A model generated the notes under the pieces. That model worked only from the letters and a program-made list of their open reading frames with translations, searched no databases and had not been told where the DNA came from. The position numbers and the translations under genes were made by a program. Source: Arenicola marina (lineage: Eukaryota > Annelida > Polychaeta > Arenicolidae). From it: a stretch of 64,000 nt of DNA. This document shows, piece by piece, positions 4,501-45,440 of the stretch. Each line of letters begins with the position of its first letter. Position 1 is the stretch's first letter. The DNA is taken from the NCBI GenBank assembly GCA_964019135.1, contig OZ025260.1, forward strand, positions 34,714,254 through 34,778,253. Reading direction: 5' to 3'.

Positions 4501-7500
4501 ACGATAATAAGGGAATATCCGGCCGAGTACCAGTCGAATAAATTCATCACATACACGCCCGCCTGCAAAACAACACGGCATTCTTAAAGCAAGCGTTTCA
4601 CCATATAACGCATACATTAAACATATCCAAGCAGATTGTAATTTAAATACTGAAAAAAACATTGACTTATTACCGAGTTTGTTACTAAGTAAACTGTAAA
4701 ATAACTCGAGTTTGCACTTTATTTAAAATAAATATCATGATACTGACCCTGGTGCATTGTGGGAGTCCAAGCAGGAAGAGTACAATGCAGAGGACGAGAG
4801 TGAGAATCGTCTTTGCATGTTTGTGTTTCTTGTGGAGGCCGAACGCGTCCGCCAGAGAAGTAATCACCGTCTCCATCATGGCAAACTGGGAGAGACGAAG
4901 TCAATGGCGACCATTAATGGTATGCAAAGCGAATCACAAATTATCTCCAAAAAATTAGGTTCTGGGTATGACACGTCAGTAGCGAATTAATAGGACTCTG
5001 AAAAAGGTTTAATCAAGTATATCCGCATTGTGTCTGCGCATATGATTCAGTATTTAAGTTATGGGGAAAAATATGGACATCAAGTTTACATATTTATGTT
5101 CATATTTGCTGATGTTGGCTACGTTGCATCAAACCATTTCAATAGCGTAGACGTTAATGTGAGTACCTGCTCATGCCAGTTAATTAGGGGCGTCATGTCC
5201 CAAAAACACCGTACAAATATTTGTTTACGCTTTTGTCTTATTATCCTGTGATATTATCGCTATGCAGGACTCAATAATCTAAGATTTGTTTAACAGTTTA
5301 CTAATATATTATGAATGCAGATTTGAATTAAGATGTGTGGCTCTTTACTAAATCCATTGGAGAATGATATGGTTTCGGTTATAGTGACATCCTTACCTGA
5401 CTGTCCAGACCCAGCGTGAGGATCATCAGGAAGAAGAGGATCGCCCATAAAGGCGCCACCGGCATGGTCGCAATGCCTTCTGGGTAAGCCACAAACGCCA
5501 AACCGGGTCCTATAACATTCATGATAAACACTTTGTCAGAAATTGAAAAACAACAGATTGAAAGACGCTTCTCATATACAGGGTCTCACTTTTAAATTAC
5601 TTCTAAATACCAAACGAATAGTGGATTAGAGGGGAGATGTTAGAATGCCACAATACTAAGAGCTGTCCTTACCGCTCTGGGCGACCTTGTCCACGTCCAA
5701 TCCGGTTATCTCTGACATGTATCCAATGACGGAGAAAATAACAAAGCCAGCAAAAATGCTTGTTCCGCAGTTAATAATGGCTACTAGAAGAGCGTCTCTG
5801 AAACATTTGAAAAATTAGATTTAAGCACTAAACTTCAAATCATTTTTTTATGTCGTATTCATTTAGTTCTATGGTCTAGATAGCAAATCATATCAGTTTC
5901 ATAAATTTTGCGATATGGCCTTGTGTGCAGTTTATACTACCTGTATTTCTTGACGGTTTCTAAATACTTAACGTTACCTTCTTGGCTACAATGTATAGAT
6001 TTAGCAAGACTACCTGTAGATGTTGTTGTGGAATCTGTTGTAACTGGCCATGGTCTGAAGGCCCCCGAACGCGATACCCAAAGAGTAGAATATTTGTATG
6101 GCGGCCGAGTACCAAACCTGAAAGATGGACAAACTCACTGGAACCGAGATAACTGACCATCTAGCAGGTTAATGACATACACCAATTTTATCGGGAGGAG
6201 GGTTTCGCGCGCGCGGAGGGTGGCGTTTCGGTTATTGGAACAGCTACTGTCTCGTCATCCATAATTGTTTCACTTTCCGTCAGTTGCTTCCAGGCGTAAA
6301 TTTGGTTTCAACTTGTTGTTTATTCTTGCGTCTCTCTCTTGCTCTCTGCTTTGTTATGCGCTTCCTATGTGCCCCTCGTACTATCACTCGCCATGTGGAT
6401 ATTGCCTGGTTCCTGACCAATCAGCACAACCCATATAGACCAGAGTAGTTCCAGTCCACATATGGTAGCGCCCTCCGGCGGGAGATTGTGCGCATTATTA
6501 ATGTGGCGGCCAGGGTTGACAACCGGGGGGATACACCCCGGCCAGGGGTGACAACTGGGGGGATACACCCCGGCCAAGGGTGACAACCAGTGGGATACAC
6601 CTCGGCCAGGGGTGACAACCGGGTTGATACACCCCGGCCATGGGTGACAACTGGGCGGACACACCCCGGCCAGGGGTGACAACCGGGCGGATACACCCCG
6701 GCCAGGGGTGACCACCGGGGGGATACACCCCGGCCAGGGGTGACAACCAGGGGGATACACCCCGGCCATGGGTGACAACTGGGGGGATACACCCCGGCCA
6801 GGGGTGACAACCGGGAGGATACACCCCGGCCATGGGTGACAACTGGGGGGATACACCCCGGCCAGGGGTGACAACTGGGGGGATACACCCCGGTCAGGGG
6901 TGACAACCGGGTTGATACACCCCCGCCAGGGGTGACAACCAGTGGGATACACCCCGGCCAGGAGTGATAACCAGTGGGATACACCCCGGCCAGGGGTGAC
7001 AACCGGGTTGATACACCCCGGCCAGCGGTGACAACCGGGGGGATACACCTCGGCCAGGGGTGACAACTGGTGGAATACACCCCGGCCAGGGGTGACAACT
7101 GGGGGGATACACCCCGGCCAGGGGTGACAACCAGTGGGATACACCCCGGCCAGGGGTGACAACCGGGGGGATACACCCCGGCCAGGGGTGACAACCAGTG
7201 GGATACACCCCGGCCAGGGGTGACAACCAGTGGGATACACCCCGGCCAGGGGTGACAACCAGTGGGATACACCCCGGCCAGGGGTGACAACCAGTGGGAT
7301 ACACCCCGGCCAGGGGTGACAAGGGGGGGGATACACCCCGGCCAGGGGTGACAACCGGGGGGATACACCCCGGCCAGGGGTGACAAGGGGGGGGATACAC
7401 CCCGGCCAGGGGTGACAAGGGGGGGGGGGGGATACACCCCGGCCAGGGGTGCCAGTCGGTGGTAGATATTGTTATTTACCGAGGGGTCCACCAGCTTGGC

Positions 7501-10500
7501 GACATCTGGCTTGACGTAGAAGAGGATTCCCTTGAGTGCCCCATCCAGAAAAGCGTTCCGGATACATAGTATGATGAGGACGGCGTAGGGGAACAGGGCC
7601 GTGAAGTAGACCACCTAGAGCAGACCAGCGGTCATACTAAGCAATCTGGATTCCCCGGCACGGGGACGTCATATAGCTATACGGGCGGCTTTTGACCCGA
7701 CATACAGGGCAAATTGTAATAATTGCATAAAAGTTAGCAAATAATATAAATAGATAAATAACCTTAATATATACATAAATATATACATATATACATATAA
7801 TTATATATATTTAAATATTTGTAGTTAAATAACCCTGTTATATATATATATATAATTAACTTTATGTATGTACAGTAGGTTATATCCAGTAGATATATCC
7901 AGTAGATAGTATATTTAGAGTAGATAGTATATTTACAGTAGATAGAATTCCAACCGACTATCTACTTTAAAGTTTATACTAAATATTAAAAACAAATCAA
8001 TAGTTATCTCCCATGCGACACGCGACGTCACAACTGTTTGATATATTGCAAGGTCACATATGGTGAGTGACTGGATTACCTTTCCAGATGACTTGACACC
8101 CTTGCACATACAGAAGAAGACGATGATCCAGGCCCCCAGCAAGGCCAGCACCAGCTTCCAGTTAAATTCAGTGTCCCCATCGTCTATGCCCTCCGAAATA
8201 TCGAGCACCTCCTCTCTGAAATATACATCCATGTAGATACATGTATGTGCTGTTGTACAAACGGTAAATTGGTAGCATATTTCATCAATGTTGCAGATAA
8301 CGGTCCACGCCATTGTTTAATGTGTTATTTCTGTCCCAGCAGACTTCTCAAATTTGGTACATCGAATAATTGCATTATGTTGAGTTTAGGAAATAAAGGA
8401 CAATTATATACAACATTTTCTTATAAAGGCATTAGTCATGCGTCATAGCACTTTAGGTTAAGCACGGATATATTTTTGCGCTAAAATAGGAGTAAGATAA
8501 CACCGAGTCGCATAATTTTCCGCTGAACTTTAATACAAACTTTTTCTTTTAAATCGACAAAAAGTAGTTCGATCGTGCAATGATGACCGATAATCGACTA
8601 GCCCCCATAAATTGGTTTTACCATTGCAAAGCCCTCTTTGCTTGAACCAAAAAGTATGCCCCCATTGCCACCCCTTTGGGATCAAAAGGCCAATCCCTTA
8701 ATAACATTGTGTAGGCTAATTACTGACGGCCGCTTGACTTATAAATGCATCTTTTTCATTGTCTTACATTAAGAGCCGTAAATAAGAACGTACTAGAAAT
8801 AATAATCGAAATACGAATCATGAATAAAGAAACTAAGTGCCGAACTTTTTCTGTGTTACTCACTCCCAGTACATGTGGGCTGATGTCATGGGGGTGGCAG
8901 TACAGTTGTAGAGGTATTCCAGGGTATTCGTCGGACCAGTGTCTCTCGTCATGTTGCACCACACCTCTGACCGAAGAAGTTATAAGTTATTCTAACCGTC
9001 AAAGAAGTGTCGCCTTCTATGCTGGGACAACCTACGTATACAACGCGATCACAATATTGAATATACAGTTATATCCACCAGTGCTCGCCTCCGTTGTCCA
9101 TAATCAGTACTGTGCCCGTCAGTACAGGGCGGTCACAGTAGAGTTCGAAAGGGGGGGGGCAAAGGGTATAAGCGTTCCTCGGGCTTAATTGGGCCTTTCA
9201 TTCCACCGTGAACTGGGACTGAGGAAAATAATTCTGCGTGAACTGGGAATGGAGTATTAGCCGACCGCCGTGATCAAGGATTTTCATTATTCGTGAACTG
9301 GGAATTTTGATATTAAATAACAGTGAATCAGGAATTATCAATTTAGTATCGTGTATCCGCCCTTCTATTGCATGCGGAGAGTTCTGCTTTTAATTCATCG
9401 TGACCTGGGAATAAAGAAATCTATTCTTCGTGATCCGGGAACACGAACCCCTCTTGCCCCCCCCCCCCCTACGGAGGTGATCGTGGTTATATCCAACGAT
9501 TCCGAGGGTGTTTCTTCTTAAAATGTAACAGTTGGCCACAGATCTTGACTCGAAAACGCTTGATTTATTTTTTCACCATTACATTAAATTGTAGACACGA
9601 ATTTATAATGAAAGATATGAAGACAACTGAAAGTAACTAAAACCACAATCCATAAGGGCTGTTTGTAAGTATGAATAATCAATACAATATCGATGACGGG
9701 AAGAGAATTGTATATCATGTAGTAGTCGGCTACTAAAGGGCTAACCTTTGGCTGTGAGTATCATGGAGTTCTTGGCTACTAAAGGGCTAACCTTTGGCTG
9801 TGAGTATCATGGAGTTCTTGGCTACTAAAGGGCTAACCGTTGGCCGTGTGCATGATGGAGTAGTTGGCTACTAAAGGGCTGACCTTTGGCTGTGAGTATT
9901 ATGGAGTAGTTGGCTAGTAAAGGCTAACCTTTGGCTGTGAGAATCATGGAGTAGTTGGCTAGTAAAGACTAACCTTTGGCCGTGAGTATCATCGAGTTCT
10001 TGGCTACTAAAGGGCAACCCTTTGGCAATAAGAATCATGGAGTAGTTGGCTATTAAAGGTCTAACCTTTGGCCGTAAGAATCACGGAGTCGTTGGCTAGT
10101 AAAGTCTAACGTTTGGTCGTGAGTATCATGGAGTTCTCGGCTACTAAAGGGCTGACCTTTGGCCGTGAGTATTATGAAGTAGTTGTCTAGTAAAGGCTAA
10201 CCTTTGGCCGTAAGTATCATGGAGTAATTGGCTAGTAAACACTAACCTTTGGCCGTGCGTATTATGGAGTAGTTTGCTACTAAAAGGCTAACCTTTGGCC
10301 GTAACAATTATGCAGTAGTTGGCTAGTAAAGACTAACCTTTGGCCGTGAGTATCATCGAGTTCTTGGCTACTAAAGGGCAACCCTTTGGCAATAAGAATC
10401 ATGGAGTAGTTGACTAGTATAGACTGATCTTGGGCCGTGAGTATCATCGAGTTCTTGGCTACTAAAGGGCTAACCTTTGGCCGTGAGTATCACCGAGTAG

Positions 10501-12853
10501 TTGGCTACTAAAGGGCTAACCTTTGGCCGTGAGTATCACCGAGTAGTTGGCTACTAAAGGGCTAACATTTGGCCTTGAGTATCATGGAGTTCTTGGCTAC
10601 TAAAGGGCTAACCTTTGGCTGTGAGCATCATGGAGTAGTTGACTACAAAAGGGCTAACCTTTGGCATTGAGTATCATCGAGTTCTTGGCTACTAAAGGGC
10701 TAACCTTTGGCCGTGAGTATCATGAAGTTTTTGGCTGCAAAAAGGCTAAACTTTGGCCGTGAGTATCAGAGAGTGATTGGCTACTAAAGGGCTAACATTT
10801 GGCCTTGAGTATCATGGAGTTCTTGGCTACTAAAGGGCTAACCTTTGGCTGTGAGCATCATGGAGTAGTTGACTACAAAAGGGCTAACCTTTGGCCATGA
10901 GTGTCATGGAGTTCTTGGCTACTAAAGGGCTAACCTTTGGCCGTGAGTATCATCGAGTTCTTGGCTACTAAAGGGCTAATCTTTAGCCGTGAGTATCATG
11001 GAGTTCTTGGCTACTAAAGGGCTAACTTTTGGCCGTGGGTATCATGGAGTAGTTGGCTACAAAAGGGCTAACCTTTTGCCGTGAGTATCATAGAGTTCTT
11101 GGCTACTAAAGGGCTAACCTTTGGCCGTGAGTGTCATGGAGTTCTTGGCTACTAAAGGGCAAACCTTTGGCCGTGAGTATCATGGAGTAGTTGGCTAATA
11201 AAGGGCTAACCTTTTTGCCGCGAGTATCATGGAGTTCTTGCCTGCTAAAGGGCTAACTTTGGCCGTTAAAATCATGGAGTAGTAGGTTACTAAAGGGCTA
11301 ACCTTTAGCCGTGAGTATTATGGAGTTCTTGGCTAGTAAAGGCTAACCTTTGGCCGTACGTATCATGGAGTAGTTGGCGTTTCTCTCGATGCACGTGTAG
11401 AGAGAGCCGGTCCGGTTGACCCGCAGCCATCCCTCCCAGCAGTGCTGCCATGGCACCTCCTTATTCATGGAGGCGAACAGGTAGTAAAGGGTGTAGGCGA
11501 TGATCATGTTGTAGTAGATGCAAACCAGGGCCGAGATAATAGCCATGGCCCACCCCAGACCTGCGGGCGAACGACGTGAGATATGAGGCAGAGCCGGGAC
11601 GGATCCATGTGAACGGGTGGGTAGTGCGATGGGGGAGGATCCCCAAATCATCAAAAATATTCGAGATTACAATTACATTAGCAATGTAGTCGATAACTAT
11701 TATGATTGCATTCCTTTTAAAGCCAAGGTAATCGATTACGATTATGATTACTGTGAAAATGTACTTGACTACGATTACTTGGAAAATGTAATCGATTACA
11801 ATCGATCACAATTACAATCGATTATAAATACAATCGATTACGATTACTTATTATGATTAACCGATGTTTGGGAGAGATACGGGCGTTGCGTTAACGATCA
11901 ACCTTCTTTTTATTGACTGATAAGTAAGGTGATCTATTTTTTTAAGAAAACCAATCTTACCTTTAAAAAATGGCATAGCTTTCCATAGTGTGATGGGTCC
12001 TTCGGAGCCGAACTGCCCAAAGGAGAGCTCCAGGAAGAACATGGGAAGTCCGGCCGTAATCAGGAAGACGATGTAGGGCACTAGGAAGGAGGCTGTGACC
12101 AGGAAGCGAAAGTACGTCCCCAGCGCGTCATCCACACGTAATCAGCACGTCATCAACACGTCATCATCGCGTCATCGACACGTCATCAACACGTCATCAA
12201 CACGTCATCAACACGTCATCAACGCGTCATTGACACGTCATCAATACGTCATCATCGCGTCATCGACACGTCATCAACACGTCATCATCGCGTCATTACC
12301 TTAGTCATGTCATTGATACGTCTACAACGCGTCATCAACACGTCATCATCGCGTCAACACCTGCGTCCTGTCGTTGACACGTCATCAACATATTAATGAC
12401 ACGTCATTAAAATGTAAATACACACTACACCCATGCGTCATCAACATCTGAGCAATGCGTCTTGGACACGTCAGCAATGCGCAACGAACACGTTATCAAA
12501 TATCATTACAAGAAAGTAAAGGAGGAGAAAGACGTTGGAAGTTTAATTTCGTTCTGAAGAAAAATCTCTGAACAAAAGCAGGCAACAATAATCGATAATC
12601 ATGTGATAAAACATATATCATAATATGAAATAGAGATCCTAATTAAGCTTATCAAGCAATATTGCACAGTTTTCTTCTGAACACGTTACATACCTCCTCC
12701 ATTTGAGTAGGCTTTGAATGGGAACCTCCAGATGTTGCCCAGACCCACGGCGAAACCAATGGTGGACAGCAGGAAGTCCGCCTTGCCGGTCCAATTGCCT
12801 CGTTCCTTGTTCTCATCCTCACCATAGGCCAAGGTACCAGCCTTCTGACCACG
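1293..12853 (-). CDS. SLC6 family Na+/Cl- amino-acid transporter, gene A (14 coding exons, first exon missing)
   Basis: This is a 12-TM plasma-membrane symporter of the neurotransmitter:sodium symporter family, with motifs closest to the glycine/proline group; the substrate itself is inferred. Exons run 12853-12694, 12092-11961, 11560-11348, 8966-8864, 8215-8080, 7614-7480, 6117-6014, 5797-5673, 5509-5397, 4885-4748, 4562-4463, 3774-3656, 3214-3047 and 1565-1293. All junctions are GT-AG and phases chain through 2019 nt (672 codons plus stop). Visible landmarks are GNIWRFPF in TM1, FLVPY in TM2, QIFYSLG in TM6 and NCGTSIFAG in TM7, whose Tyr, Gln, Ser and Asn positions correspond to the chloride site of the family. 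EL2 has several N-glycosylation sequons (NRT, NYS, NMT, NCT). The C-tail has PPEY and ends in STRL, a class I PDZ-ligand pattern. No initiator exon was recognised. The frame stays open to an ATG at 12928, but its residues do not look like an SLC6 N-terminus. Gene B is the tandem paralogue. Confidence 0.93.
1566..3046. other. Gene A intron e13-e14
   Basis: The only ordered structure seen is the 39-bp repeat at 2541-2696. The remainder is ordinary AT-rich intron. The ORFs inside are short and unlike any known protein. Confidence 0.6.
2541..2696. repeat. Tandem repeat, 39-bp unit x 4
   Basis: Units start at 2541, 2580, 2619 and 2658 with CACCGGTCAATTCTGACACG; the last copy has diverged. 39 is a multiple of 3, so the minus strand stays open through it ([13 protein letters not shown] per unit). 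That is a by-product, not a gene. Confidence 0.9.
3047..3214 (-). CDS. Gene A exon e13: TM11 end and TM12
   Basis: 168 nt, phase 0, encoding [26 protein letters not shown] and [10 protein letters not shown]. The acceptor is GTTCGGCAG and the donor GTGAGT. Confidence 0.9.
3656..3774 (-). CDS. Gene A exon e12: TM11
   Basis: 119 nt encoding [13 protein letters not shown], then [17 protein letters not shown]. It is 18 nt (6 codons) longer than gene B e12, which has [13 protein letters not shown] at this position. Confidence 0.88.
3796..3838. repeat. CT-rich simple repeat
   Basis: A run of (TC)n with a few CCC/TTT interruptions, in the intron just upstream of gene A e12. An ATCAT/ATTATC-rich tract follows at about 3885-4030. 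Confidence 0.85.
4463..4562 (-). CDS. Gene A exon e11: TM10
   Basis: 100 nt encoding [20 protein letters not shown] and [10 protein letters not shown]. Same length and phase as gene B e11. Confidence 0.93.
4748..4885 (-). CDS. Gene A exon e10: TM8 end and TM9
   Basis: 138 nt encoding [15 protein letters not shown], then TM9 ([15 protein letters not shown]). The METVITS stretch resembles glycine transporters. Confidence 0.93.
5397..5509 (-). CDS. Gene A exon e9: EL4 to TM8
   Basis: 113 nt encoding [20 protein letters not shown], then [17 protein letters not shown], the TM8 signature of the family. Confidence 0.93.
5673..5797 (-). CDS. Gene A exon e8: TM7
   Basis: 125 nt encoding [20 protein letters not shown], then [21 protein letters not shown]. 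The acceptor is TGTTTCAG and the donor GTAAGG. Confidence 0.93.
6014..6117 (-). CDS. Gene A exon e7: TM6
   Basis: 104 nt encoding [20 protein letters not shown] and [10 protein letters not shown]. The unwound TM6 centre reads YSLGIAFG; the Gln and Ser here match the chloride-site positions of the family. Confidence 0.93.
6505..7452. repeat. Minisatellite, 32-bp unit, about 29 copies (gene A intron e6-e7)
   Basis: The unit begins GATACACCCCGGCCAGGGGT and is followed by GACAACC plus a variable AGTGG/GGGGG end. Spacing measured at 7203 and 7235 is 32 bases. The minus strand is open in all three frames over most of the array, giving long spurious ORFs (up to 397 aa) with period 32 aa (for example PLAGVYP, HPWPGCI, VTPGRGV). 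It starts about 30 bases from the e6 donor. Confidence 0.95.
7480..7614 (-). CDS. Gene A exon e6: TM5
   Basis: 135 nt, phase 0 at both ends, the same as gene B e6. Encodes [20 protein letters not shown] to [11 protein letters not shown]. The donor GTAAAT is followed about 30 bases later by the 32-bp minisatellite. Confidence 0.93.
7740..7960. repeat. AT-rich low-complexity tract with a TAGATAGTATATTT repeat
   Basis: ATATACATATA-type simple sequence, then several copies of a motif around AGTAGATAGTATATTTA at about 7880-7940, in gene A intron e5-e6. Confidence 0.7.
8080..8215 (-). CDS. Gene A exon e5: TM4
   Basis: 136 nt, the same as gene B e5. Encodes [10 protein letters not shown], then TM4 ([14 protein letters not shown]) ending at KGVKSSGK. 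The donor is GTAATC. Confidence 0.93.
8864..8966 (-). CDS. Gene A exon e4: end of EL2
   Basis: 103 nt, the same as gene B e4. Encodes [10 protein letters not shown] to [14 protein letters not shown] with NMT and NCT glycosylation sequons. The donor is GTGAGT. Confidence 0.88.
9200..9460. repeat. Degenerate dispersed motif CGTGAACTGGGAAT
   Basis: At least five loose copies of CGTGAAC/CTGGGAAT-like sequence, irregularly spaced, just before the 46-bp array in intron e3-e4. It looks like an eroded tandem array. Confidence 0.5.
9721..11379. repeat. Minisatellite, 46-bp unit, about 36 copies, containing gene A exon e3's 3' end and donor
   Basis: The unit on the plus strand begins GGCTACTAAAGGGCTAACCT, then TTGGCCGTGAGTATCATGGA and GT(A/T)(G/C)TT; register at 9730 and 9776 is 46 bases. 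On the minus strand each unit contains a near-copy of the last 31 coding bases of e3 (ACTCCATGATAC, CGGCCAAAG) followed by GTTAGCC, the e3 splice donor. The last unit is the real exon-intron junction at 11348-11379. Confidence 0.93.
11348..11560 (-). CDS. Gene A exon e3: TM3 and start of EL2
   Basis: 213 nt encoding [20 protein letters not shown], the VPWQHC cysteine and sequons NRT and NYS. The chosen donor is AAAG/GTTAGC. An alternative ATAC/GTACGG 10 bases earlier would keep the phase but is a poor match to the donor consensus. The last 31 coding bases belong to the 46-bp minisatellite unit that fills the next intron. Confidence 0.88.
11655..11860. repeat. Imperfect AATCGATTAC-rich tract
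   Basis: Irregular copies of AATCGATTAC, GATTACGATTA and related words, many centred on the palindrome ATCGAT, in gene A intron e2-e3. Confidence 0.65.
11961..12092 (-). CDS. Gene A exon e2: TM2
   Basis: 132 nt, the same length as gene B e2. Encodes [10 protein letters not shown] through [12 protein letters not shown] to KAMPFFK. The acceptor is GGTCACAG and the donor GTAAGA. A CGTCATC-rich array begins about 30 bases upstream of the acceptor. Confidence 0.93.
12122..12490. repeat. Short tandem repeat of CGTCATC(A/G)ACA, mixed 11-12 bp units
   Basis: Roughly 25 variants of ACACGTCATCA and GCGTCATCG. The array starts about 30 bases upstream of the gene A e2 acceptor, in intron e1-e2, and decays toward 12490. 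Confidence 0.85.
12694..12853 (-). CDS. Gene A exon e1: N-tail and TM1
   Basis: Starts in phase 0 after a GCGCAG acceptor, encodes [14 protein letters not shown], then [11 protein letters not shown] and the TM1 signature GNIWRFPF with SNGGG. The donor is GTATGT and one base carries over. This is the first SLC6-like exon found; the start codon must lie upstream. Confidence 0.9.
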
Positions 12854-27100: not shown

Positions 27101-29306
27101 ATATATAGAGGGTCGATACATCCGGGTCAATAAGATATATAGAGGGGCAATAGATCCGGGTCAATAGGATATATAGAGGGTCTATACATCCGGGTCAATA
27201 GGATATAAAGAGGGTCGATACATCCGGGTCAATAGGATATATAGAGGGTCGATACATCCGGGTCAATAGGATATATAGAGGGTCAATAGATCTGGGTCAA
27301 TAGGATATATAGAGGGTCGATACATCCGGGTCAATAGGATATATAGAAGGTCGACACATCCAGGTCAATAAGATATATAGAGGGTCAATAGATCCGGGTC
27401 AATAGGATGTATAGAGGGTCGATACATCCGGGTCAATAGGATATATAGAGAGTCAATACATCCGGGTCAATAGGATATATAGAGGGTCTATACATCCGGG
27501 TCATGAGGATATATAGAGGGTCGATACATCCGGGTCGATAGGATATATAGAGGGTCGATACATCCGGGTCAATAGGATATATAGAGGGTCGATACATCCG
27601 GGTCAATAGGATATATAGAGGGTCAATAGATCTGGGTCAATAGGATATATAGAGGGTCGATACATCCGGGTCAATAGGATATATAGAAGGTCGATACATC
27701 CGGGTCATGAGGATATATAGAGGGTCGATACATCCGGGTCGATAGGATATTTAGAGGGTCGATACATCCGGGTCAATAGGATATATAGAGGGTCGATACA
27801 TCCGGGTCAATAGGATATATAGAGGGTCGATACATCCGGGTCAATAGGATATATAGAGGGTCAATAGATCTGGGTCAATAGGATATATAGAGGGTCGATA
27901 CATCCGGGTCAATAGGATATATAGAGGGTCGATACGTCCGGGTCAATAAGATATATAGAAGGTCGATACATCCGGGTCAATAGGATATATAGAGGGTCGA
28001 TACGTCCGGGTCAATAAGATATATAGAGGGTCAATAGATCCGGGTCAATAGATGTATAGAGGGTCGATACATCAGGGTCAATAGGATATATAGAGAGTCA
28101 ATACATCCGGGTCAATAGGATATATAGAGGGTCTATACATCCGGGTCAATAGGATATATAGTGGGTCGATACATCCGGGTCAATAGGATATATAGAGGGT
28201 CGATACATCCGGGTCAATAGGATATATAGAGGGTCGATACATCCGGGTCAATAGGATATATAGAGGGTCGATAGATCTGGGTCAATAGGATATATAGGGG
28301 GTCGATACATCCGGGTCAATAGGATATATAGAAGGTCGATACATCCGGGTCAATAAGATATATAGAAGGTCGATACATCCGGGTCAATAGGATATATAGA
28401 GGGTCGATACATCCGGGTCAATAAGATATATAGAGGGTCAATAGATCCGGGTCAATAGGATATATAGAGGGTCGATACATCCGGGTCAATAAGATATCTA
28501 GAGGGTCAATAGATCCGGGTCAATAGGATATATAGAGGGTCAATAGATCCGGGTCAATAGGATGTATAGAAGGTCGATACATCCGGGTCAGTAGGATGTA
28601 TAGAGGGTCGATACATCCGGGTCAATAGATGTATAGAGGGTCGATACATCCGGGTCAATAGGACATATAGAGAGTCAATACATCCGGGTCAATAGGATAT
28701 ATAGAGGGTCTATACATCCGGGTCAATAGGATATATAGAGGGTCGATACATCCGGGTCAATAGGATATATAAAGGGTCGATACATCCGGGTCAATAGGAT
28801 ATATAGAGTGTCGATACATCCGGGTCAATAGGATATATAGAGGGTCGATAGATCTGGGTCAATAGGATGTATAGGGGGTCGATACATCCGGGTCAATAGG
28901 ATATATAGAAGGTCGATACATCCGGGTCAATAAGATATATAGAAGGTCGATACGTCCGGGTCAATAGGATATATAGAGGGTCGATGCATCCGGATCAATA
29001 AGATATATAGAGGGTCAATAGATCCGGGTCAATAGGATATATAGAGGGTCGATACATCCGGGTCAATAAGATATATAGAGGGTCAATAGATCCGGGTCAA
29101 TAGGATATATAGAGGGTCAATACATCCGGGTCAATAGGATGTATAGAGGGTCGATACATCCGGGTCAATAGGATGTATAGAGGGTCGATACATCCGGGTC
29201 AATAGGATATATAGAGGGTCGATACATCCGGGTCAATAGGATGTATAGAGGGTCGATACATCCGGGTCAATAGGATGTATAGAGGGTCGATACATCCCGA
29301 TCAATA
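24182..29306. repeat. Giant minisatellite, 34-bp unit, about 150 copies
   Basis: The unit begins GGGTCGATACATCCGGGTCA and ends ATAGGATATATAGA; register checked at 26041 and 26075. Rare variants recur as a block: ATTACATGCGTG at 25481 and 26672, and GGTTATTACATCC at about 25071 and 26262, both 1191 bases apart (35 units plus 1). This shows duplication of a roughly 1.2-kb segment. No coding role is seen. Confidence 0.97.
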
Positions 29307-35150: not shown

Positions 35151-35384
35151 TTACAGCCTGTCGGCGTAGACGCTGTCGGTCGTGACGCCCGAGATGGTGG
35201 CCAGGTCTCCATTCGTGGCGTTGTATCGATACTTGATCCCGTCCTCCATTTCCATGGCAGCGTTGTCGTACTCCGGGGGTGGCGTACTATCCTCGCTGTT
35301 GCCCAGAGGGGCGTACCTCCCGGTTCGGTATTTATCCGCCAGGGGTCCCCAGTCGTACGCAGGCTTGAACAACTTCTTCAGTTC
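35151..35384 (-). CDS. Gene B exon e14: C-terminal tail and stop
   Basis: 234 nt including the stop, encoding [31 protein letters not shown], an acidic stretch and a final ADRL. The PPEY motif is shared with gene A although the rest of the tail has diverged. Confidence 0.93.
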   Translation of the reverse strand, partial: ELKKLFKPAYDWGPLADKYRTGRYAPLGNSEDSTPPPEYDNAAMEMEDGIKYRYNATNGDLATISGVTTDSVYADRL

Positions 35385-38300
35385 CTGTCGACAGAGATAA
35401 AAGCCAATGACTAGGGTGTACTTATGAAGGGTTGGGGTGGGGGGGTGGTTGTTAAAAGCTTCAGACAGAAGAATCTCCATGAATGGGTAAACCGAAAAGA
35501 TACCTGGAACTTGTTGCTTTCGTCTAAAGCAACGAGTCATTGCCGCACTAAATGTTTTTCTCATCGAATCCTTCAAACTAATGGGACCAAATTTACGCAA
35601 CCATTTACGTAACCAGAAAGTATTGTAGTATTGATGAATCGTTTAGCTATCAAATTCATACAAACAATGCAACACACTTATCGCTTATCTGTTCGTACAA
35701 GACGTTTTACGGACAATCTACTAGCAAAACGGTCGCCATATTTGTTTTCGCGCATGCTGGTGCCTCTGAATGCAATTTGGTTTGCATACTTTCGCTCGCA
35801 CGTGACTGCGATATTTCCACGTTAGAGGGCGCTGATCGTTGCGTACTTTGAGGCGAAAGAACGACAACAGCGCCCTCTGCCTACATGCGCTTAATACTAA
35901 ACACGGCACCCGGTTTACTCGTTGGGGGTCCGTAAGTGGGCTGTGACGTCATTCATACAGGAAGTGACGTCAAGACTCACATATCGTAATGTTCTTTCCA
36001 TTGCTCTACCATCTTTCTGATTTATATCGCACTTGTTAACAGATAATGCATCATAATAATAATAACAATAATAATAATATATGGCATACGAGTATTTACC
36101 TTGATCATTCCCGAGGCCTGGCAGTACTCGTACACAGCGAGGACGGGGATGAAGATGAGGGCGGCGAACACCATGCCCCAGCCCAGGCCATCAGCCCAAG
36201 GCGGGTAGGCATACGACCCGTAGGTCACCGGCGAGTACTGCACTATGGCGAACACCAGGATCGTCTGCAAGACAAGGAGTCAGTGCACAACGTTAAACAT
36301 CATATATATATAAACATTTCGGAAACATTTTTGTTATTTCTGAAGAAAAAAAAACGGGTATTTATGAGGTTTGCTTTGTTGTCTTGCCCCCTCCTCACGC
36401 CGCGAGTTATCATTCAGTTACGTACTTACTAGCTTACTTACTTGGTTACTGAATTGTTAATTCAGTAACTGAATGAGCGATAATATGGAGTAACCAGGTT
36501 GAATACTCACAGCCATGAGGATGGGTGTGACGCCCACCCAGCAGACTTTCCAGTACCAGTTGGGCTCGTGGCCAATCATCATCTTAATATCCAGCGAGAA
36601 TCGCTTGAAGCCTGCAGAGATAAACATATCAAATTAGGATTTGTAAAGTTAATATTATTCTAAGCCTCTATAAAGGTTCAAGCCATTACACATCAGATTC
36701 TGTATAACGACACCATGAAACTTTGGCACTAAAAGAGCTTATACAAGCTATAGAAAAAATATGGATGGGTGCTACCTTTGCGAGCGCATCTTTATTAATT
36801 CAGCTATTCCGTGGAGATACATCTAGATTAATATTTAAAATAAATCCCACTTCGGCTTGCCGTAATGCATATCTTTGACGTGCTTGTGGCAAATCATTCG
36901 GTTGCTTAGTAACTCCCATTGTCACTTCATTTTTATAACATGTTGACATCACAACTACTCGGAATTCCGTTTTAAAACGTCAAGTTTTTTTGTTTTGTTG
37001 ATAAATTATAGAACATAAAACGAGAGGCAATTTTGTTTGAAGTCGGCAAGTTTCATTCATATATACATATATGTCTTACAGTAATCAATCTTCGACAAAA
37101 CAAAAACCCACGCATGCATACATGCGATCTTTTCCGCTTTACTAAGCGGAAGTCGACTTCCGGTGGATTTCACCAGCTCATAGAGTCAGATATAGATTTT
37201 GTCATTTGTTTACGTGTGTGTCATCTACAGAGCTCGCTACGCTCGCTACAAATAAAACTTTCTATGATATAAACAAATTCTAAACAATTTATGTGTAGCA
37301 AAATGTCATGCACCCAAAATGTTTCTTTCGGGATGGCCCTGTCCACCATGATTTCATGTTAGTTTTGACCTACCGTAGATCCATGCCACGACGCAGACTT
37401 CCAACAGAGACACAACCATGAGGGAGAAGCCAGCGCAATACCAGTCGAACAAGTTCATCACATAGATGCCAGCCTAAAATGTGAAAATAATTGATGTACC
37501 ATTCACGCATGAAACAACATTCAAATTAAAGTTGAATCAATACATTTATAGCGCCATATATAATCATATATGCGCATAACACCTCCTCTTCATTCCTCAC
37601 ATTACATTTTTAGTAAAAATTACGTCAGTGCTCTATAAAATGTTATAAAATATAAACATTATTATTTCATTTCTTTTAAATAATATTATTTTCTTTAAAT
37701 CTTACTGATATCATGTCATTGAAATCTTATTATTATCCTGTTTTATTTAAATCTAATTACTGTTTTATTTTATTTAAACCTAATTATTATTATATTTTAT
37801 TAAATCTGATTATCATTATATTTTATTAAATCTGATTATAATAATATTTTAGTTAAATATAATTGTTGTCACATTTTACTCAAATATCAATATTATCATA
37901 CTTGCTTTTGAGAAATATATAACTGTTGTTTAGGTGATGATTCTATTCAGCCAATATTATTCCTAAGACAGGCAAACGCGGTTAGATCCGACGTCTGGGG
38001 ACACTGGGGCGGGTGTCTTACCCTGGAGCACTGCGGCAATCCGATGAGGAACATGGCCGTGCAGAGACTGCCAATAAAGGCACATCGATGCCAGATGGTC
38101 TTTCTCAGGAGAGGGAACTCGTCAGTCATGCTGGTTATAACGGTCTCCATCATGCCAAACTGAAAGAAACATGTCAGACAAGATCAGTCAAGGTCGACAG
38201 TTATTAACGTGCCCACATATCAATATTAACATATCAATAAACTATTTTGCAACAGTGTGGCTTTGCAACTTCGTGTCGCGTTATGACCTTGTTTTGGTAA

Positions 38301-41300
38301 GGTCAGGCGTAGTATAGTATACTGATTTCTACTTCGGTAATAACGGTGTTTGCGCAAATGTAATGAATGGGTGTTTTAGAAACATGGCGGTATGACGAAG
38401 CATGAATGGATGAAAGATGCTCCATGGTCGGTGCCCGGGCTCGGATTCCGAACCCAGGACCTGTTGATATGAGGTCTAGTGAGTTGACCACTACAGCAGA
38501 GAGACCCCCCAAGCCCCTGCCCCACCCGTCAACACCCCCCCCCCGCCCCCCCCCAAATCCCCCCACCCCGGTAGTCCCGACCCACGGTGACCACCAAGTG
38601 TATATGATCAATGCCTTCTCTCTAGTGATCTCAGTGTGTCATGCCGAAATATCCTCCCAAGTGCAGTACGGTGCCGCCGTGATAGATATAGTGGGAGGGG
38701 GGGGGGGGGGCATTTCCATCTCCGCATGGGGACGGGGTGGGGGGGTGCGCAATCCCACATACCACGCCGGTTTACTGACCTGACTGTCCAGACCGAGGGT
38801 GAAGAGCATGCAGAAGAAGAGAATGGCCCATAAAGGAGCAATGGGCATCATGGCAATACCTTCTGGGTAGGCCACGAAGGCCAGTCCCGGACCTGCAATG
38901 AAATAACCATATCAACGATAAACAAGCCAGCAATCCACAACGTGCACGCACTATATAAGCAAGTAATAACCCATCACAACGCTCTGTGTAAATCAACATA
39001 TAACTAGCAATATAATTACATACAGACATTATTCATGCCCGCGTTCTATAACAAACAATGTACTGTGAATGTCCTGTCCTCCATATAGCAAGTACTGACA
39101 GAGAGTCGATATTAGATAGCGATGTCCAATAGACAATGTGTGTCAACGTTCGATATAATCAAACCTTGTGTACGCTCTGTACAAACGAACGATTAGAACA
39201 TAACGTAAATACCAATGTTGACGCTGCAATGAAATGAATTACTGTTTCATACCGCGTTTGCCCACACAAGAACTTAACTGGGCCATCGCGCTCTGGATAA
39301 GCCCTATATAACAGCACTGCCGAAAATACATTGTATGCAGATAAAATGAGCTTCCAATACCGAGAGGATTGCTTCAGGTTGGTCAGGCTTAACACAGTTT
39401 AAAATCTCTGGCGATAATACGTGAAACTCGCAAAGCACGTGAGTGTGACGTAGACCCACCAGCATCTGCAACGTCCTGAATGTCGACCCCAGTGGTGTAG
39501 GCCATGTGGCCAATCACAGAGAAGATGACAAATCCGGCAAAGATACTGGTACCGCAATTCAAGATGGCCACCACTACCGCATCCCTGCGATGAAGAATCA
39601 ATGAAATATTGTAAACTGTAAGCATGTGGGTTTTGTTGACACCAAGAACATTTAAAAATTAAACCGGGTTTGAAATAAAGCACAAAGGTTCAAATCCATA
39701 TAACTCAAAAGTGAAATTTGAAGCGGATCGATATCCCGGAACCAAACAAAATGACGTCATCGGCATCTGAATCAAGGCGTTATTCTAAACACACATATCT
39801 GTTAACAAACTGTTACACTGAGAGTACATGTAGACCTCGTTGGCTTTGCTATTCGACTGTCATATTAAGAAATTCCCAGCCATGAAAATGTGTTTATAAT
39901 CTCGGCATAGTTTAAGGACAGATCATGGCATCCTGAAAGTCAGTTAAGCATGCGAGCACGTGGGTGCTCACTGACCTGTAGCAGTTATTGTGGAACTTGT
40001 TGTAACTCGTCATGGCTCCCAGAGCACCGAAAGCCACACCAAGCGAGTAGAAGATCTGTACAGCCGCACTGTACCACACCTACAGATAAAAACAACAATT
40101 TCATTCCGTGCTACATAAGTAGTAATAAAATATATACATTGACAATAGAACAGAACAGACGCTATACTGTGACTGTAAAGCAGTGCCTGTGCCTGTGCCT
40201 GTGACGCAGAGCATGTCGCCCTCACCTCGTAGGATGCTAGCTTGCTCCACTCCGGAATGATGTAGAACTCGATGCCGAGGCTAGCGCCTGGTAGCGTGGC
40301 ATTGCGGCACAACAGGATGAAGAGCACGATGTACGGGAACGTGGCTGTGAAGTAAACGACCTGTGGGAGAACAGAGTGGGCGTCTGGTCAGAATGACAAC
40401 TTCCTGGCAAAGTAGGGACCGTCAAGTTGTTGCAGTGCAAGAACGTCTGCATTTTTAAATATGCAGATATGCGCCAAAAAAAAATTATCGTACTTCGTTA
40501 TCTTTATCATCAACATACGTGTCATTGTCCACATCATCGGAGTTATAAGTATATGATCCACCCTTGTTATTATTATTATTATTATATTACAATTATAACA
40601 TTACTACATTACTATTATGGTATTTCTATACTATTATATCGCTATTGCGATAATATTAAATATTAAATTTATCATCATATTATAATATCTCTATTATTAG
40701 ATTATTAAATTATAATAAATTATAATGTCATTATACTATAGTATTATTGTTATCTTACTATAATAATACCATCATATTATTATTGTCATTTATTGTTATT
40801 GCTGCTGTTGTTGTGACGCACCTTGCCGGAGGACTTGATTCCCTTGATGAGGCAGAAGAAGACGACGATCCAGGCGAGCAGCAGGCAGAGGACCAGTTGC
40901 CAGCGCATCTCGTACGTGCCCACGTCAATCCCCTCAGACATGTCGAGCACCTCACGCCTGTCACAAACCACAGATCCTTTAGTACCTTACATAATATCTG
41001 CACAAACTCAAACATTATGCTTCACAGCTCAAATAATTCGCGAACAAAGTACGGAGACCTGCTAGTCAGTGTTGTATTAAGAAAAAAAACTTAAACTTTT
41101 GTGATGAATTGCTATTCAGTGTTGTATTGAAAACAAAAGAATCTAAACTTTTATGATTAATTGCTATTCAGTGTTGTATTGAAAAAATAATCTGAACTTC
41201 AGTGATTAATTTTTTTTTTAGGTTAGTGGATCTAAATGAAGTGCGGCATAATGTGTGTATTAATTATGGCAAGGGTATTTAGCGAATAGTTCCATGTTAC

Positions 41301-44300
41301 ACTTAGCATGATATTTTTGTTATTGATGAGTATTTATAACATGCAAGGCACAACTAAAACCAACAATAGGGACTATTAATAAAATGAAAGTGTCAACGTA
41401 CTCCCAGTAGATTTGACTCGGGGATTTAGGACGCATGGTGCAGTTGCCTATGAAGCCTGCTACATCCGTGGTGTTCATTTCTTTCATTTCGTTGCACCAT
41501 GTTGCTGAAAAAATGCATCACAGATATATATCTACTAAATTTACTTTGTCTTAGAAACAACATATACACATTTTTATCCAAATGACGTTGGTTTGTCTTC
41601 AAGCTATACATATCCAGCAAACAAACAACTATGCACAACAGCAGAAGCCGAAGCTTATATACTAAAATCAAGTGCAACATAACAACTGTGAAGAGACTGC
41701 GTATCCACCCATTATATACAGACACACAAAGAGACAAATATTCTTTACCATTGCAAGTTCGAAAATGAATTGAACTACACAAACCTGTTTGGTTACGAAC
41801 GGTCTTGTTGAGCATCTCCCTCTCGACGCAGCCGTACTGGGCCCACTCGGGTCGACAGTTCTGCCAGGGCACCTCCGAGGTGAAGGACGCAAAAGTGTAG
41901 TACAGGGTGTAGGCGATGATCATGTTGTAGTAGATACAGGTCAGGAAGGAGATGACGGCCATGGCCCAGCCGATGCCTGCGAGGACACAAAGTCGCGTGG
42001 TCGTCAGACACCCAAAGCCACGTGGTCGCCAGATACCCACAGCCACGTGGTCGTCATACACAGAAAAAGGCACGTGGTCGTCATACACAGAAAGCCACGG
42101 GATCGCCATACATAGGAAAAAGGCACGTGGTCGTTAGACACAGAAAGCCACGTGGTCGTCACCAAGAAGCGGATCCGCTGCGGAATAATTCAATATTATA
42201 ACAGTAGGTCACATTTCATCCAATAGTGAAATAAATGATGAATGGTTTTTGCACAGAAGAAGTCTAAACTGAGCCAGGACGAATCCCGGTGTCACATGCG
42301 GAAATGCCCCCCTTATATATAATACATCATGGGTGACCAAAAGCGCTACCCACTGGGCCACTGGGTGACCAAAAGTGCTACCCACTGGACCACTGGGTGA
42401 CCAAAAGCACTACCCACTGGGCCACTAGGTGACCAAAAGCGCTACCCACTGGGCCACTAGGTGACCAAAAGCGCTACCCACTGGACCACTGGATGACAAA
42501 AGCGCTACCCACTGGGCCACTAGGTGACCAAAAGCGCTACCCACTGGGCCACTGGGTGACCAAAAGCGCTACCCACTGGGCCACTGGGTGACCAAAACCG
42601 CTACCCACTGGGCCACTGGGTGACCAAAAGCAATACCCACTGGACCACTGGGTGACCAAAGCGCTACTCACTGGGCCACTGGGTGACCAAAAGCGCTATC
42701 CACTGGACCACTGGGTGACCAAAAGCGCTACCCACTGGACCAGTGGGTGACCAAAAGCGCTATACCCACTGGACCAGTGGGTGACCAAAAGCGCTACCCA
42801 CTGGACCACTGGGTGACCAAAAGCGCTACCCACTGGACCACTGGGTGACCAAAAGCGCTACCCACTGGACCACTGTGTGACCAAAAGCGCTACCCACTGG
42901 GCCACTAGGTGACCAAAAGCGCTACCCACTGGACCACTGTGTGACCAAAAGCGCTACCCACATGGCCACTAGGTGACCAAAAGCGCTACCCACTGGGCCA
43001 CTAGGTGACCAAAAGCGCTACCCACTGGGTCACTGGGTGACCAAAAGCGCTACCCACTGGACCACTGGGTGACCAAAAGCGCTACCCACTGGGCCACTAG
43101 GTGACCAAAAGCGCTACCCACTGGACCACTGGGTGACCAAAAGCGCTACCCACTGGGCCACTGGGTGACCAAAAGCGCTACCCACATGGCCACTAGGTGA
43201 CCAAAAGCGCTACCCACTGGGTCACTGGGTGACCAAAAGCGCTACCCACTGGGTCACTGGGTGACCAAAAGCGCTACCCACTGGGTCACTGGGTGACCAA
43301 AAGCGCTACCCACTGGGTCACTGGGTGACCAAAAGCGCTACCCACTGAGCCATTAGGTGACCCCGCGTTCGTGATACTTACCCTTGAAGAAGGGCACAGC
43401 TTTCCACACGGATATGGGTCCCTGGGATGAGAACTGACCGAGCGCCATCTCGAGGAAGAAGAGTGGCAGTCCAGCCAGAAGCAGAGTGATGATATAAGGG
43501 ATGAGGAACGAAGCTGAAAATACGAAACATGAGTCATGAAGCATGACAAAATGGCGGTAACGATTACTTGGGGATAAAATGTGTGCACACATGCGCATGG
43601 GCTGCATTGGAGCTGGTAATTTTATTGTTTTCGTCTGTTCAGGCGTCGTCAGCCGGTTGGAGCCGGTTAGGTTGTCGGTGCCTCGTGGTTTTGATTCTGT
43701 CTAGGGTGATGCCTTCCTCGCATGTGTATCGAATTTCGTAGCATAGACTAAAATAATGAGTTGTCTTATTTACCAACATTTAGGTACTCATATTTGCAGT
43801 AAGATTAGTTAATAGTAAGCCCAGGTCAGTTTAAGGAATGAACCAATGGTTGTCTCCCTATAGGTTTGAGTTTAAGGGTTTTAAAAGTACACGACGAGAG
43901 TTCGAGATGAATGCTATAGACGCTGATGTCATCCTCTATATATAAATGGGGGTCCTTTTATATGCAATACGCTGATCTGAAAACAATAACAGGGATAAGT
44001 GACATGATGATTTTCGTTCCAATAAAGACATATATGAAGCTTACCTCCGCCATTGCTGTAGGCTCGGCATGAGATGACTTCGCAAATCATAGCTACGTAA
44101 CTCAGAGAGGTAAGTTAGACAAGCTCATTAATTTAATTAAAGCACATAAAAATATATCCAGAACTCTATTGCGCCAGTCCAACCTTTTCGAAGACGGCGA
44201 ATTTTTTACGAATCATGCATTCTTGTAGGCTCGTGTGGAAAGCTTACCTCCGCCACTGCTGTATGCTCGGTAGGGGAAGCTTACCTCCGCCACTGCCGTA

Positions 44301-45440
44301 TGCTCGGTAGGGGAAGCTTACCTCCGTCATTGCTGTAGGCTCGGTAGGGGAAGCTTACCTCCGCCACTGCCGTATGCTCGGTAGGGGAAGCTTACCTCCG
44401 TCATTGCTGTATGCTCGATAGGGGAAGCTTACCTCCGCCATTGCTGTAGGCTCGGTAGGGGAAGCTTACCTCCGCCACTGCCGTATGCTCGGTAGGGGAA
44501 GCTTACCTCCGCCACTGCCGTATGCTCGGTAGGGGAAGCTTACCTCCGTCATTGCTGTATGCTCGGTAGGGGAAGCTTACCTCCGCCACTGCCGTATGCT
44601 CGGTAGGGGAAGCTTACCTCCGCCATTGCTGTAGGCTCGGTAGGGGAAGCTTACCTCCGCCACTGCCGTATGCTCGGTAGGGGAAGCTTACCTCCGCCAC
44701 TGCCGTATGCTCGGTAGGGGAAGCTTACATCCGTCATTGCTGTAGGCTCGGTAGGGGAAGCTTACCTCCATCATTGCTGTATGCTCGGGAGGGGAAGCTT
44801 ACCTCCGCCATTGCTGTAGGCTCGGTAGGGGAAGCTTACCTCCGCCATTGCTGTAGGCTCGGTAGGGGAAGCTTACCTCCGCCACTGCCGTATGCTCGGT
44901 AGGGGAAGCTTACCTCCGCCATTGCTGTAGGCTCGGTAGGGAAAGCTTACCTCCGCCACTGCTGTATGCTCGGTAGGGGAAGCTTACCTCCGCCACTGCC
45001 GTATGCTCGGTAGGGAAAGCTTACCTCCGCCACTGCTGTATGCTCGGTAGGGGAAGCTTACCTCCGCCACTGCCGTATGCTCGGTAGGGGAAGCTTACCT
45101 CCGCCATTGCTGTAGGCTCGGTAGGGGAAGCTTACCTCCGCCACTGCCGTATGCTCGGTAGGGGAAGCTTACCTCCGCCATTGCTGTAGGCTCGGTAGGG
45201 GAAGCTTACCTCCGCCATTGCTGTAGGCTCGGTAGGGGAAACTTACCTCCGCCATTGCTGTAGGCTCGGTAGGGAAAGCTTACCTCCGCCATTGCTGTAG
45301 GCTCGGTAGGGGAACCGCCATACGTTTCCCAGTCCCACGGCATATCCGACCGCGGACAGGAAGAAGTCACATTTCCCGGACCAGTTCCCACGCGCAGTCT
45401 CGTCTCCCTCCGCGATGTCAAGCGACTCCGCCGCTGCCCT
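35151..45440 (-). CDS. SLC6 family Na+/Cl- amino-acid transporter, gene B (14 coding exons, first exon missing)
   Basis: Paralogue of gene A with the same exon plan. Exons run 45440-45284, 43513-43382, 41976-41785, 41504-41402, 40957-40822, 40360-40226, 40079-39976, 39584-39460, 38892-38780, 38159-38022, 37473-37374, 36611-36511, 36264-36100 and 35384-35151. All are GT-AG and sum to 1935 nt (644 codons plus stop). Landmarks are GNVWRFPY in TM1, FLIPY in TM2, QIFYSLG in TM6, NCGTS in TM7, [10 protein letters not shown] and GLDSQ in TM8. TM11 and its preceding loop ([20 protein letters not shown], then [10 protein letters not shown]) resemble glycine transporters more closely than in gene A, so Na+/Cl- dependent glycine-like uptake is the best guess; the substrate is not proven. 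The C-tail carries PPEY and ends ADRL. The start codon exon lies upstream of 45440 and was not found. Confidence 0.93.
36100..36264 (-). CDS. Gene B exon e13: TM11 end and TM12
   Basis: 165 nt, phase 0, encoding [31 protein letters not shown] and [10 protein letters not shown]. The donor is GTAAAT. Confidence 0.93.
36511..36611 (-). CDS. Gene B exon e12: TM11
   Basis: 101 nt encoding [20 protein letters not shown], then [13 protein letters not shown]. The donor is GTGAGT. Confidence 0.93.
37374..37473 (-). CDS. Gene B exon e11: TM10
   Basis: 100 nt encoding [20 protein letters not shown], then [10 protein letters not shown]. The donor is GTAGGT. Confidence 0.93.
37550..37930. other. AT-rich intron segment, gene B e10-e11
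   Basis: Degenerate repeats of TTTTATTTAAATCT and AATTATTAT words. No other signal seen. Confidence 0.6.
38022..38159 (-). CDS. Gene B exon e10: TM8 end and TM9
   Basis: 138 nt encoding [20 protein letters not shown], then [19 protein letters not shown]. The TDEFP run is typical of glycine transporters. Confidence 0.93.
38345..38510 (-). mobile_element. tRNA-derived SINE, degenerate copy in gene B intron e9-e10
   Basis: Shares GGTGCCCGGGCTCGGATTC, AACCCAGGACCT and the CCACTACA A-box complement with the SINE at 20112-20304. The B box has one inserted base (GATTCCGAACC). A C-rich tract (38511-38580) follows. Confidence 0.8.
38780..38892 (-). CDS. Gene B exon e9: EL4 to TM8
   Basis: 113 nt encoding [20 protein letters not shown], then [17 protein letters not shown]. 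The donor is GTCAGT. Confidence 0.93.
39460..39584 (-). CDS. Gene B exon e8: TM7
   Basis: 125 nt encoding [20 protein letters not shown], then [21 protein letters not shown]. The donor is GTGGGT. Confidence 0.93.
39976..40079 (-). CDS. Gene B exon e7: TM6
   Basis: 104 nt encoding [20 protein letters not shown] and [10 protein letters not shown]. The donor is GTCAGT. Confidence 0.93.
40226..40360 (-). CDS. Gene B exon e6: TM5
   Basis: 135 nt encoding [20 protein letters not shown], then a linker ending [10 protein letters not shown]. The donor is GTGAGG. Confidence 0.93.
40565..40800. repeat. ATT/TTA-rich simple repeat, gene B intron e5-e6
   Basis: Long run of (ATT)n, (TAT)n and near-palindromic AT words close to the e5 donor. 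Confidence 0.8.
40822..40957 (-). CDS. Gene B exon e5: TM4
   Basis: 136 nt encoding [11 protein letters not shown], then [14 protein letters not shown] and KGIKSSGK. The donor is GTGCGT. Confidence 0.93.
41402..41504 (-). CDS. Gene B exon e4: end of EL2
   Basis: 103 nt encoding [14 protein letters not shown] to [14 protein letters not shown] with sequons NTT and NCT. The donor is GTACGT. Confidence 0.9.
41785..41976 (-). CDS. Gene B exon e3: TM3 and start of EL2
   Basis: 192 nt encoding [26 protein letters not shown] and sequons NKT and NQT; the donor is GTTTGT. It is 21 nt shorter than gene A e3, the difference falling in EL2. Confidence 0.92.
41987..42165. repeat. Tandem repeat, about 27-bp unit x 7, at the gene B e3 acceptor
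   Basis: Units of CACGTGGTCGTCATACACAG plus AAAGC with variants, starting about 10 bases upstream of the e3 acceptor. Each unit carries an E-box CACGTG. Confidence 0.88.
42330..43362. repeat. Minisatellite, 32-bp unit, about 32 copies (gene B intron e2-e3)
   Basis: The unit begins CACTGGGTGACCAAAAGCGC and ends TACCCACTGG(A/G)C. Copies are highly similar. The array stops about 18 bases inside the intron from the e2 donor. Confidence 0.95.
43382..43513 (-). CDS. Gene B exon e2: TM2
   Basis: 132 nt encoding [29 protein letters not shown] and KAVPFFK. The donor GTAAGT is followed about 15 bases later by the 32-bp array. Confidence 0.93.
43607..44036. other. Intron e1-e2 of gene B, non-repetitive part
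   Basis: No gene or clear motif. It lies between exon e2 and the first stray junction unit. Confidence 0.5.
44037..44070. repeat. Isolated copy of the e1-junction unit
   Basis: AAGCTTACCTCCGCCATTGC and TGTAGGCTCGG match the array unit exactly, but the copy is separated from the array by about 150 bases of unrelated DNA. Confidence 0.85.
44224..45315. repeat. Minisatellite, 37-bp unit x 29, made of gene B exon e1's 3' end plus donor
   Basis: Register at 44281 and 44318 is 37 bases. On the minus strand each unit reads CCCCTACCGAGC, then (C/A)TAC(A/G)GCA(A/G)TGGCGGAG, then GTAAGCTT. That is the last 29 coding bases of e1 (PYRAYSNGG) plus 8 intron bases. The final unit (45284-45312) is the real exon end. 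Reading through the first donor meets a stop in the next unit. Confidence 0.96.
45284..45440 (-). CDS. Gene B exon e1: N-tail and TM1
   Basis: Phase-0 start after a strong TTTTTTTCAG acceptor. Encodes [24 protein letters not shown] and [15 protein letters not shown]; the donor is GTAAGC. The last 29 coding bases plus 8 intron bases are the unit of the 37-bp array that follows. Confidence 0.92.

Follow-up and report, generated by a model that had tools for sequence, protein, structure and literature searches.

A 64,000-nucleotide stretch of the Arenicola marina genome (the window, located on contig 13, or C13, of 42.2 Mb, in an assembly of 867 Mb) carries an SLC6 transporter gene in which one exon end, together with the 5′ splice site that follows it, stands in tandem 29 times. 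Arrays of this kind recur in the window's other SLC6 gene and in SLC6, CCT chaperonin and myosin loci elsewhere in the assembly. Among the loci sampled, arrays beside donors start at the donor far above chance, and acceptors are spanned less often. It is likely, in our assessment, that they are a donor-side form of the amphioxus “mirages”, arising by recurrent tandem duplication at exon ends and tolerated as the exon-side donor is used. The original prediction for this DNA survives in part: the observation of the array is upheld, and the proposals that it acts as a sink for U1, as a source of isoforms or as a step of intron gain are not.

A tandem array of splice junctions in gene B

The gene concerned, gene B (35151..45440, minus strand, the 35151 end being approximate), consists of SLC6 coding exons e1 to e14; the start-codon exon was not found. 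All 14 exons were read as open and in frame through the SNF domain, with exact splice joints verified for e1 to e3 only, and the gene is apparently an intact, glycine-transporter-like member of the family. Its closest solved structures are chains of glycine transporter 2 (best E 5e-190). Among the 120 protein matches listed, the closest, P0001, has 92% identity over 100% of the query; identity is 57-59% for the three best annelid hits, 56% for the nemertean Lineus, 55% for Owenia and 51% at most for Branchiostoma. A contig of the assembly carries a mitochondrial COX1 that, read with the invertebrate code, has Pilargis wolfi as its best named hit (91%), ahead of Saccocirridae and other annelid records, including one labelled Phyllodocida, the group to which Pilargis belongs. 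With the gene B identities, this rejects a lancelet as host, an idea raised by the literature on mirages. Exon e1 (45284..45440, minus strand, 157 nt), assigned by its frame and SLC6 similarity, encodes part of the N-terminus and TM1. It is followed by intron 1 (43514..45283, minus strand), which begins within the array, and by exon e2 (43382..43513, minus strand), which is in frame with e1 such that the junction reads NGG|ASFLIPY.

Exon e1 ends with ..AATGGCGGAG|GTAAGC, its last base being 45284. Read on the minus strand, a gapless run of 29 consecutive 37-bp units extends from 45314 to 44242, in agreement with the TRF call on the window (44240-45314, period 37, 29.1 copies, 93% matches, 0% indels). 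Every unit is an exon-intron junction, as had been proposed. The proposed division of the unit into 29 exon and 8 intron bases describes the same array, but homology to the exon extends to 45314 and makes it 31 exon bases plus 6 intron bases, GTAAGC or a variant. Unit 1 (45314-45278) is the genuine end of e1 plus its donor. Among the 28 units that follow, 7 repeat it exactly and 21 depart from it at 1-4 bases. The extra donors are nearly perfect, as stated originally, with GAGGTAAGC present in 27 of the 29 units, GAGGTAAGT in one and GATGTAAGC in one, and with GT retained in all 28 extra copies (29/29 counting unit 1). The units are bounded by AG|GT, and their length is not divisible by three. 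The limit of 44224 first given for the array holds if a decayed partial 30th copy (44224..44241) is included, whereas the last complete unit stops at 44242.

A solitary, exact 32-bp copy lies about 150 bp beyond the array on its downstream side (44036..44067, minus strand; CCGAGCC..GGAG|GTAAGCTTC). The intervening stretch (44068-44223) is flanked on both sides by the 10-bp repeat CGAGCCTACA and may have been inserted into the last unit; the window holds no further copy of it. At the inferred duplication joint, TTC is common to the exon (cggTTCccc) and to the intron (aagcTTCata, as in the solitary copy), which is compatible with microhomology. The window matches a single locus in the one assembly searched. 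Two more arrays on the minus strand lie near splice sites of gene B, namely a 32-bp array of 32 copies (42330..43362) that starts ∼20 bp past the e2 donor and includes no exon, and a 25-bp array (41985..42161) that ends ∼8 bp before the e3 acceptor.

Coding consequences of donor choice

The first donor alone is productive, as originally predicted: it is the only one to leave the frame open through e1-e3. Splicing from donor 2 shifts the frame and leads to a stop after 169 codons (read through e1-e3), and each of donors 3-29 (27/27) runs into a stop 65 codons from the start of e1. Read-through also meets the predicted stop in the second unit, the TAA of its GTAAGT, 65 codons from the e1 start. 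With 27 of the 28 distal donors stopping this early and the remaining one shifting the frame, the idea that the array supplies alternative isoforms loses its footing, and nothing in the reading of e1-e3 suggests a useful one.

In the reading that we favour, the exon-side donor is the one used, probably through exon definition, since donor 1 alone has the remainder of the true exon directly in front of it. The other 28 donors would then be decoys, whose frameshifted or early-stopped products are presumably removed by nonsense-mediated decay. Against this, when identical donors stand in tandem, the intron-side one may be favoured in some assays. The joint in P0001 is compatible with use of donor 1, as it reads NGG|ASFLIPY, exactly what this donor would give, although the protein is that of a relative that may lack the array and is intronless because its source contigs (≤2,567 bp) are too short for introns. 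We take the label of this source, “lgn”, to denote an assembly of read-archive data.

Related arrays in other SLC6 genes

The array is not a single case, which the original prediction missed: the same type occurs in gene A and in other genes. In gene A, which also lies in the window and also belongs to SLC6, the end of exon e3 and its donor (..GGCCAAAG|GTTAGCC) make up a 46-bp unit present in 36 copies (9713..11378, minus strand), and these units are also bounded by GT and AG. A further gene A array (6507..7451, minus strand; 32 bp, 29 copies) starts ∼28 bp past the e6 donor.

A profile search for the SNF domain listed 98 matches in the assembly, and the best 30 loci were examined. Several array scans combined yield junction-spanning arrays in 13 of these 30 (L018, L019, L021, L023, L026, L027, L028, L030, L031, L032, L034, L037 and L039). 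Their dimensions vary, from only 2 copies in L027 to 61 bp in 25 copies in L030, 49 bp in 23 copies in L018, 41 bp in 38 copies in L023, 38 bp in 36 copies in L039 and 45 bp in 14 copies in L037. Two additional candidates are not claimed: in L022 the array lies outside the exon, and in L014 the first match overran its exon. Within a single SLC6 gene, L026 (C10 near 10248960) has two acceptor-side arrays, of 44 bp in 13 copies and 45 bp in 4 copies, the second of which reads as an open frame.

Retention of GT in the repeated donors

If the surplus donors are nearly neutral, as the mirage explanation supposes, they should decay freely. In the intronic copies of 11 donor arrays, however, GT departs from the consensus at 23 of 518 positions, compared with 873 of 10537 for the other bases, and GT is less variable than the other positions in 10 of the 11 arrays (one-sided rank test, p=0.027 for 10 arrays, with the four-copy array of L021 excluded). 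This counts against near-neutrality. The signal is nonetheless weak, because copies homogenise and the number of independent mutations is consequently small. The array of L018 (C13 near 2824681) shows the opposite, GT having become AT in 9 of its 22 intronic copies. Across the arrays tested, the decoy donors show no general purge.

These data bear on the possibility that extra donors are useful, either because a higher density of U1 strengthens exon definition or because unproductive splicing tunes output, with array length as a dial. Complete retention of GT in gene B and its lower variability in nearly all arrays are what such a function would produce, and a frameshift or stop from every distal donor (28/28) is what regulated unproductive splicing needs. 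Nevertheless, homogenisation and the loss of GT in L018 weaken the first point, and the genes that bear arrays are unrelated, as are their units. Nor does the RNA around the first units fold in any special way: the first 202 nt fold no better than shuffled sequence (z=0.56), a value that also rules out RNA structure in this segment as a means of concealing the decoys. We consider a useful role of the extra donors unlikely, and the proposed U1 sink is left with weak GT retention as the sole evidence bearing on it.

Distribution of arrays at splice sites in three gene families

Two further families, the CCT chaperonins and the myosins, were chosen before looking for arrays. The sample comprised 100 windows of 401 bp at donors (30 from SLC6, 30 from CCT and 40 from myosin loci) and 80 at acceptors (30, 30 and 20), with the CCT loci being the best 30 of 49 matches and the myosin loci the first 40 of 77 in table order for donors and the first 20 for acceptors. 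A uniform rule defined arrays (period ≥10, ≥2.5 copies, score ≥50). Exon ends were taken from HMM matches that end near a scored GT, so single positions may be a few codons off; for acceptors the match start was used, with no site scored.

An array is present in 31 of the 100 donor windows. Of these, 17 were called as spanning the donor, 8 start at −3 to +40 and 6 lie further out, to +340; one spanning call (MYO_L111) was dropped, there being no GT at the called donor, which leaves 16. Donors are spanned in 7 of 30 SLC6 loci (L037 by 4 bp only), in 3 of 30 CCT loci (L061, L070 and L079, with units of 82, 55 and 29 bp composed of exon end and donor) and in 6 of 40 myosin loci (L094, L101, L114, L115, L117 and L119). 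The CCT locus L060, where the array starts at the donor, was excluded from the spanning count. Thus, in the two preselected families, 9 of 70 donors are spanned, or about one in eight. At acceptors, 15 of 80 windows hold an array, with 2 spanning, 5 within 40 bp and 8 further away. The difference between donors and acceptors (16/100 versus 2/80, p=0.0024) persists when three related TM1 arrays are counted once (14 versus 2, p=0.007) and in CCT and myosin alone (9/70 versus 1/50, p=0.04).

The most ordinary explanation is that minisatellites are abundant in a repeat-rich genome and touch some exons by chance, with splice sites not favoured. Tandem arrays indeed occupy ∼34% of the window; their share is ∼22% in the SLC6 loci and 12% in the CCT loci. 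The window also holds two very long minisatellites, with 238 copies of 37 bp at 13081-21909 and 150 copies of 34 bp at 24213-29306. Random placement, moreover, touches exon edges more often than is seen: arrays shifted randomly across the SLC6 loci and the window overlapped exon edges 53 times on average, versus 16 rows observed, 3 of which are due to mis-set exon limits in L026 and L019. Arrays avoid exon interiors, which is what selection would demand. It follows that a preference for donors rests on where the donor-side arrays begin and not on raw exon overlap.

By this measure the preference is pronounced. Within windows of 400 bp, 24 of 30 first arrays fall within −60 to +40 of the donor (p=4e-10), and the share that spans it (16/30) exceeds the uniform expectation for units of 50 bp (p=6e-7) as well as 80 bp (p=1e-4). 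For CCT and myosin alone, 15 of 19 arrays have their start within a zone of 100 bp about the donor (p=1e-6) and 9 of 19 span it (p=0.0006 for a 50-bp unit). The pattern was unchanged under an earlier, stricter cut (≥3 copies, score ≥100), in which the first downstream array lies less than 60 bp away in 8 of 30 SLC6 and 6 of 30 CCT loci and at a distance of 60-560 bp in 3 SLC6 loci and 1 CCT locus. On the upstream side, the corresponding numbers are 4 SLC6 and 2 CCT loci below 60 bp, and 5 and 3 at 60-560 bp. Genes A and B together hold 7 intronic arrays of ≥5 copies, of which 4 span a donor or sit within 30 bp of it (p=0.0025) and 2 lie within 30 bp of an acceptor (either edge, p=0.0002), values computed with approximate exon ends, some of which later shifted by a few bases, and without gene A exons e4 and e12, such that two introns were taken as too long. 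Together with the excess of spanned donors over spanned acceptors, the clustering makes chance placement of ordinary minisatellites improbable.

The mirage explanation draws further support from the joint in P0001 and from the shared architecture of gene A and the SLC6, CCT and myosin loci. Arrays that cluster beside acceptors without spanning them count against it. Arrays that span acceptors might be fewer owing to stronger harm there, where decoy acceptors would precede the true one. At 10 of the 16 spanned donors the exon ends in AG, which places GT and AG at the borders of whole units, as in genes A and B; the surplus left by a wrong distal donor might then, in principle, be excised in a second round of splicing.

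The intron of gene B is probably older than its array

To place the array relative to its intron, we draw on 23 TM1 exons, both genes of the window included. The TM1 motif was seen in 20 of the 23 copies read and was absent from L041, L046 and L055. A GT donor occupies the same place in all 20 motif-bearing copies, of which 15 have no array and 5 have at least one extra copy (just one in L028). Because this donor position is common to TM1 exons that for the most part lack an array, intron 1 of gene B probably existed before its array. A new intron absent from relatives, the mark of intron gain by tandem duplication, is therefore not what is seen at TM1. In the Rogers model, proposed for amphioxus globins and described for mirages (PMC3087553), an intron is gained when an AG|GT site is duplicated in tandem. 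An intermediate of that process would fit units that are bounded by AG|GT and form a GT..AG stretch in any whole number, but it is highly improbable with the donor in the same place throughout and no intron gained here; as far as the paralogues indicate, this part of the original prediction fails for this intron.

Four of the five array-bearing TM1 exons are neighbours on C13 (L028, L031, L032 and L034). Their arrays have the same unit length as that of gene B (37 bp) but different break points, so there seem to have been at least two array births at the same TM1 junction, and a single ancestral array for all TM1 exons is unlikely. The cluster of SLC6 matches to which they belong (C13:2678942-2861908) holds related 37-bp arrays that differ in length and decay.

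In the donor-side mirage that we favour, a short tandem duplication, perhaps at TTC, would have crossed the end of e1 and the start of a pre-existing intron, with slippage or unequal exchange expanding it to 29 copies. Such births would recur at exon ends in this annelid, mostly at 5′ splice sites, and a sizeable share of introns would open with an array.

Relation to known systems

A minisatellite in a human gene, IFI6, was reportedly described in 1995 as having units that carry splice donors. It shares donor-bearing minisatellite units with gene B, and it concerns a single human gene. Apart from this study, a search of titles, abstract openings and passages in a limited collection revealed no recognisable junction-spanning array outside lancelets.

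Mirages of amphioxus are minisatellite-like tandem duplications of an intron-exon boundary on the donor or acceptor side (PMC3087553, PMC3902484), named in Adh3 and the globins BflGb6 and BflGb9 (PMC3087553) and in PGBD5 and troponin C (PMC3902484). The same sources give units of 10-72 bp for Adh3, many of which keep AG/GT, with regular splicing reported, and haplotypes of 6 and 3 units for BflGb6 (PMC3087553, PMC3902484). The gene B array resembles them in that its tandem units span the boundary, are of minisatellite size and keep AG/GT. It differs in its setting, which is a polychaete annelid rather than the few lancelet genes named there, in copy numbers of up to ∼40 among the arrays found here, and in that about one donor in eight (9 of 70) is affected in families not selected for arrays, with a bias to donors. 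The present arrays thus extend mirages from lancelets to an annelid, and their frequency and bias in the sample call for a cause that acts at splice sites.

Each array sets many near-identical 5′ splice sites in natural competition, and does so even in such fundamental genes as those for CCT and myosin; donor choice and exon definition can therefore be tested directly with ordinary RNA reads. The arrays also bear on how introns lengthen. A more far-reaching proposal, which we put forward tentatively and hold to be possible rather than probable, is that arrays in this particular annelid lineage are born preferentially at 5′ splice sites, that introns in their thousands begin with a series of decoy donors, and that splice-site-directed mutation lengthens introns genome-wide while exon definition keeps splicing accurate.

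Several other repeats within genes share single features with these arrays. Earthworm metallothionein genes, also annelid, have large minisatellite regions in intron 1, whose units are not described there as including exon or splice site (PMC12783039). Human UBC has tandem AG|GT sites that are used as both types of splice site (dual-specific), and 792 human introns lie within 262 tandem repeats (PMC10809524); as in gene B, any stretch of complete units can form a GT..AG intron, but the UBC repeats are coding and their isoforms vary in unit number, whereas the extra repeats of gene B are intronic and have a unit length that is no multiple of three. In potato RdRp, a tandem genomic duplication is said to have created an intron, unlike in gene B, where the intron appears older than the array (PMC4974935). 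A further report concerns internal tandem repeats that alter gene structure in humans (PMC2812944). Among the arrays found here, that of the myosin locus L101 (C7:32813799-32814199) is composed of units that each contain a pyrimidine tract, AG, 12 exon bases and a donor, and with an apparent 3′ and 5′ splice site per unit it looks like a row of micro-exons.
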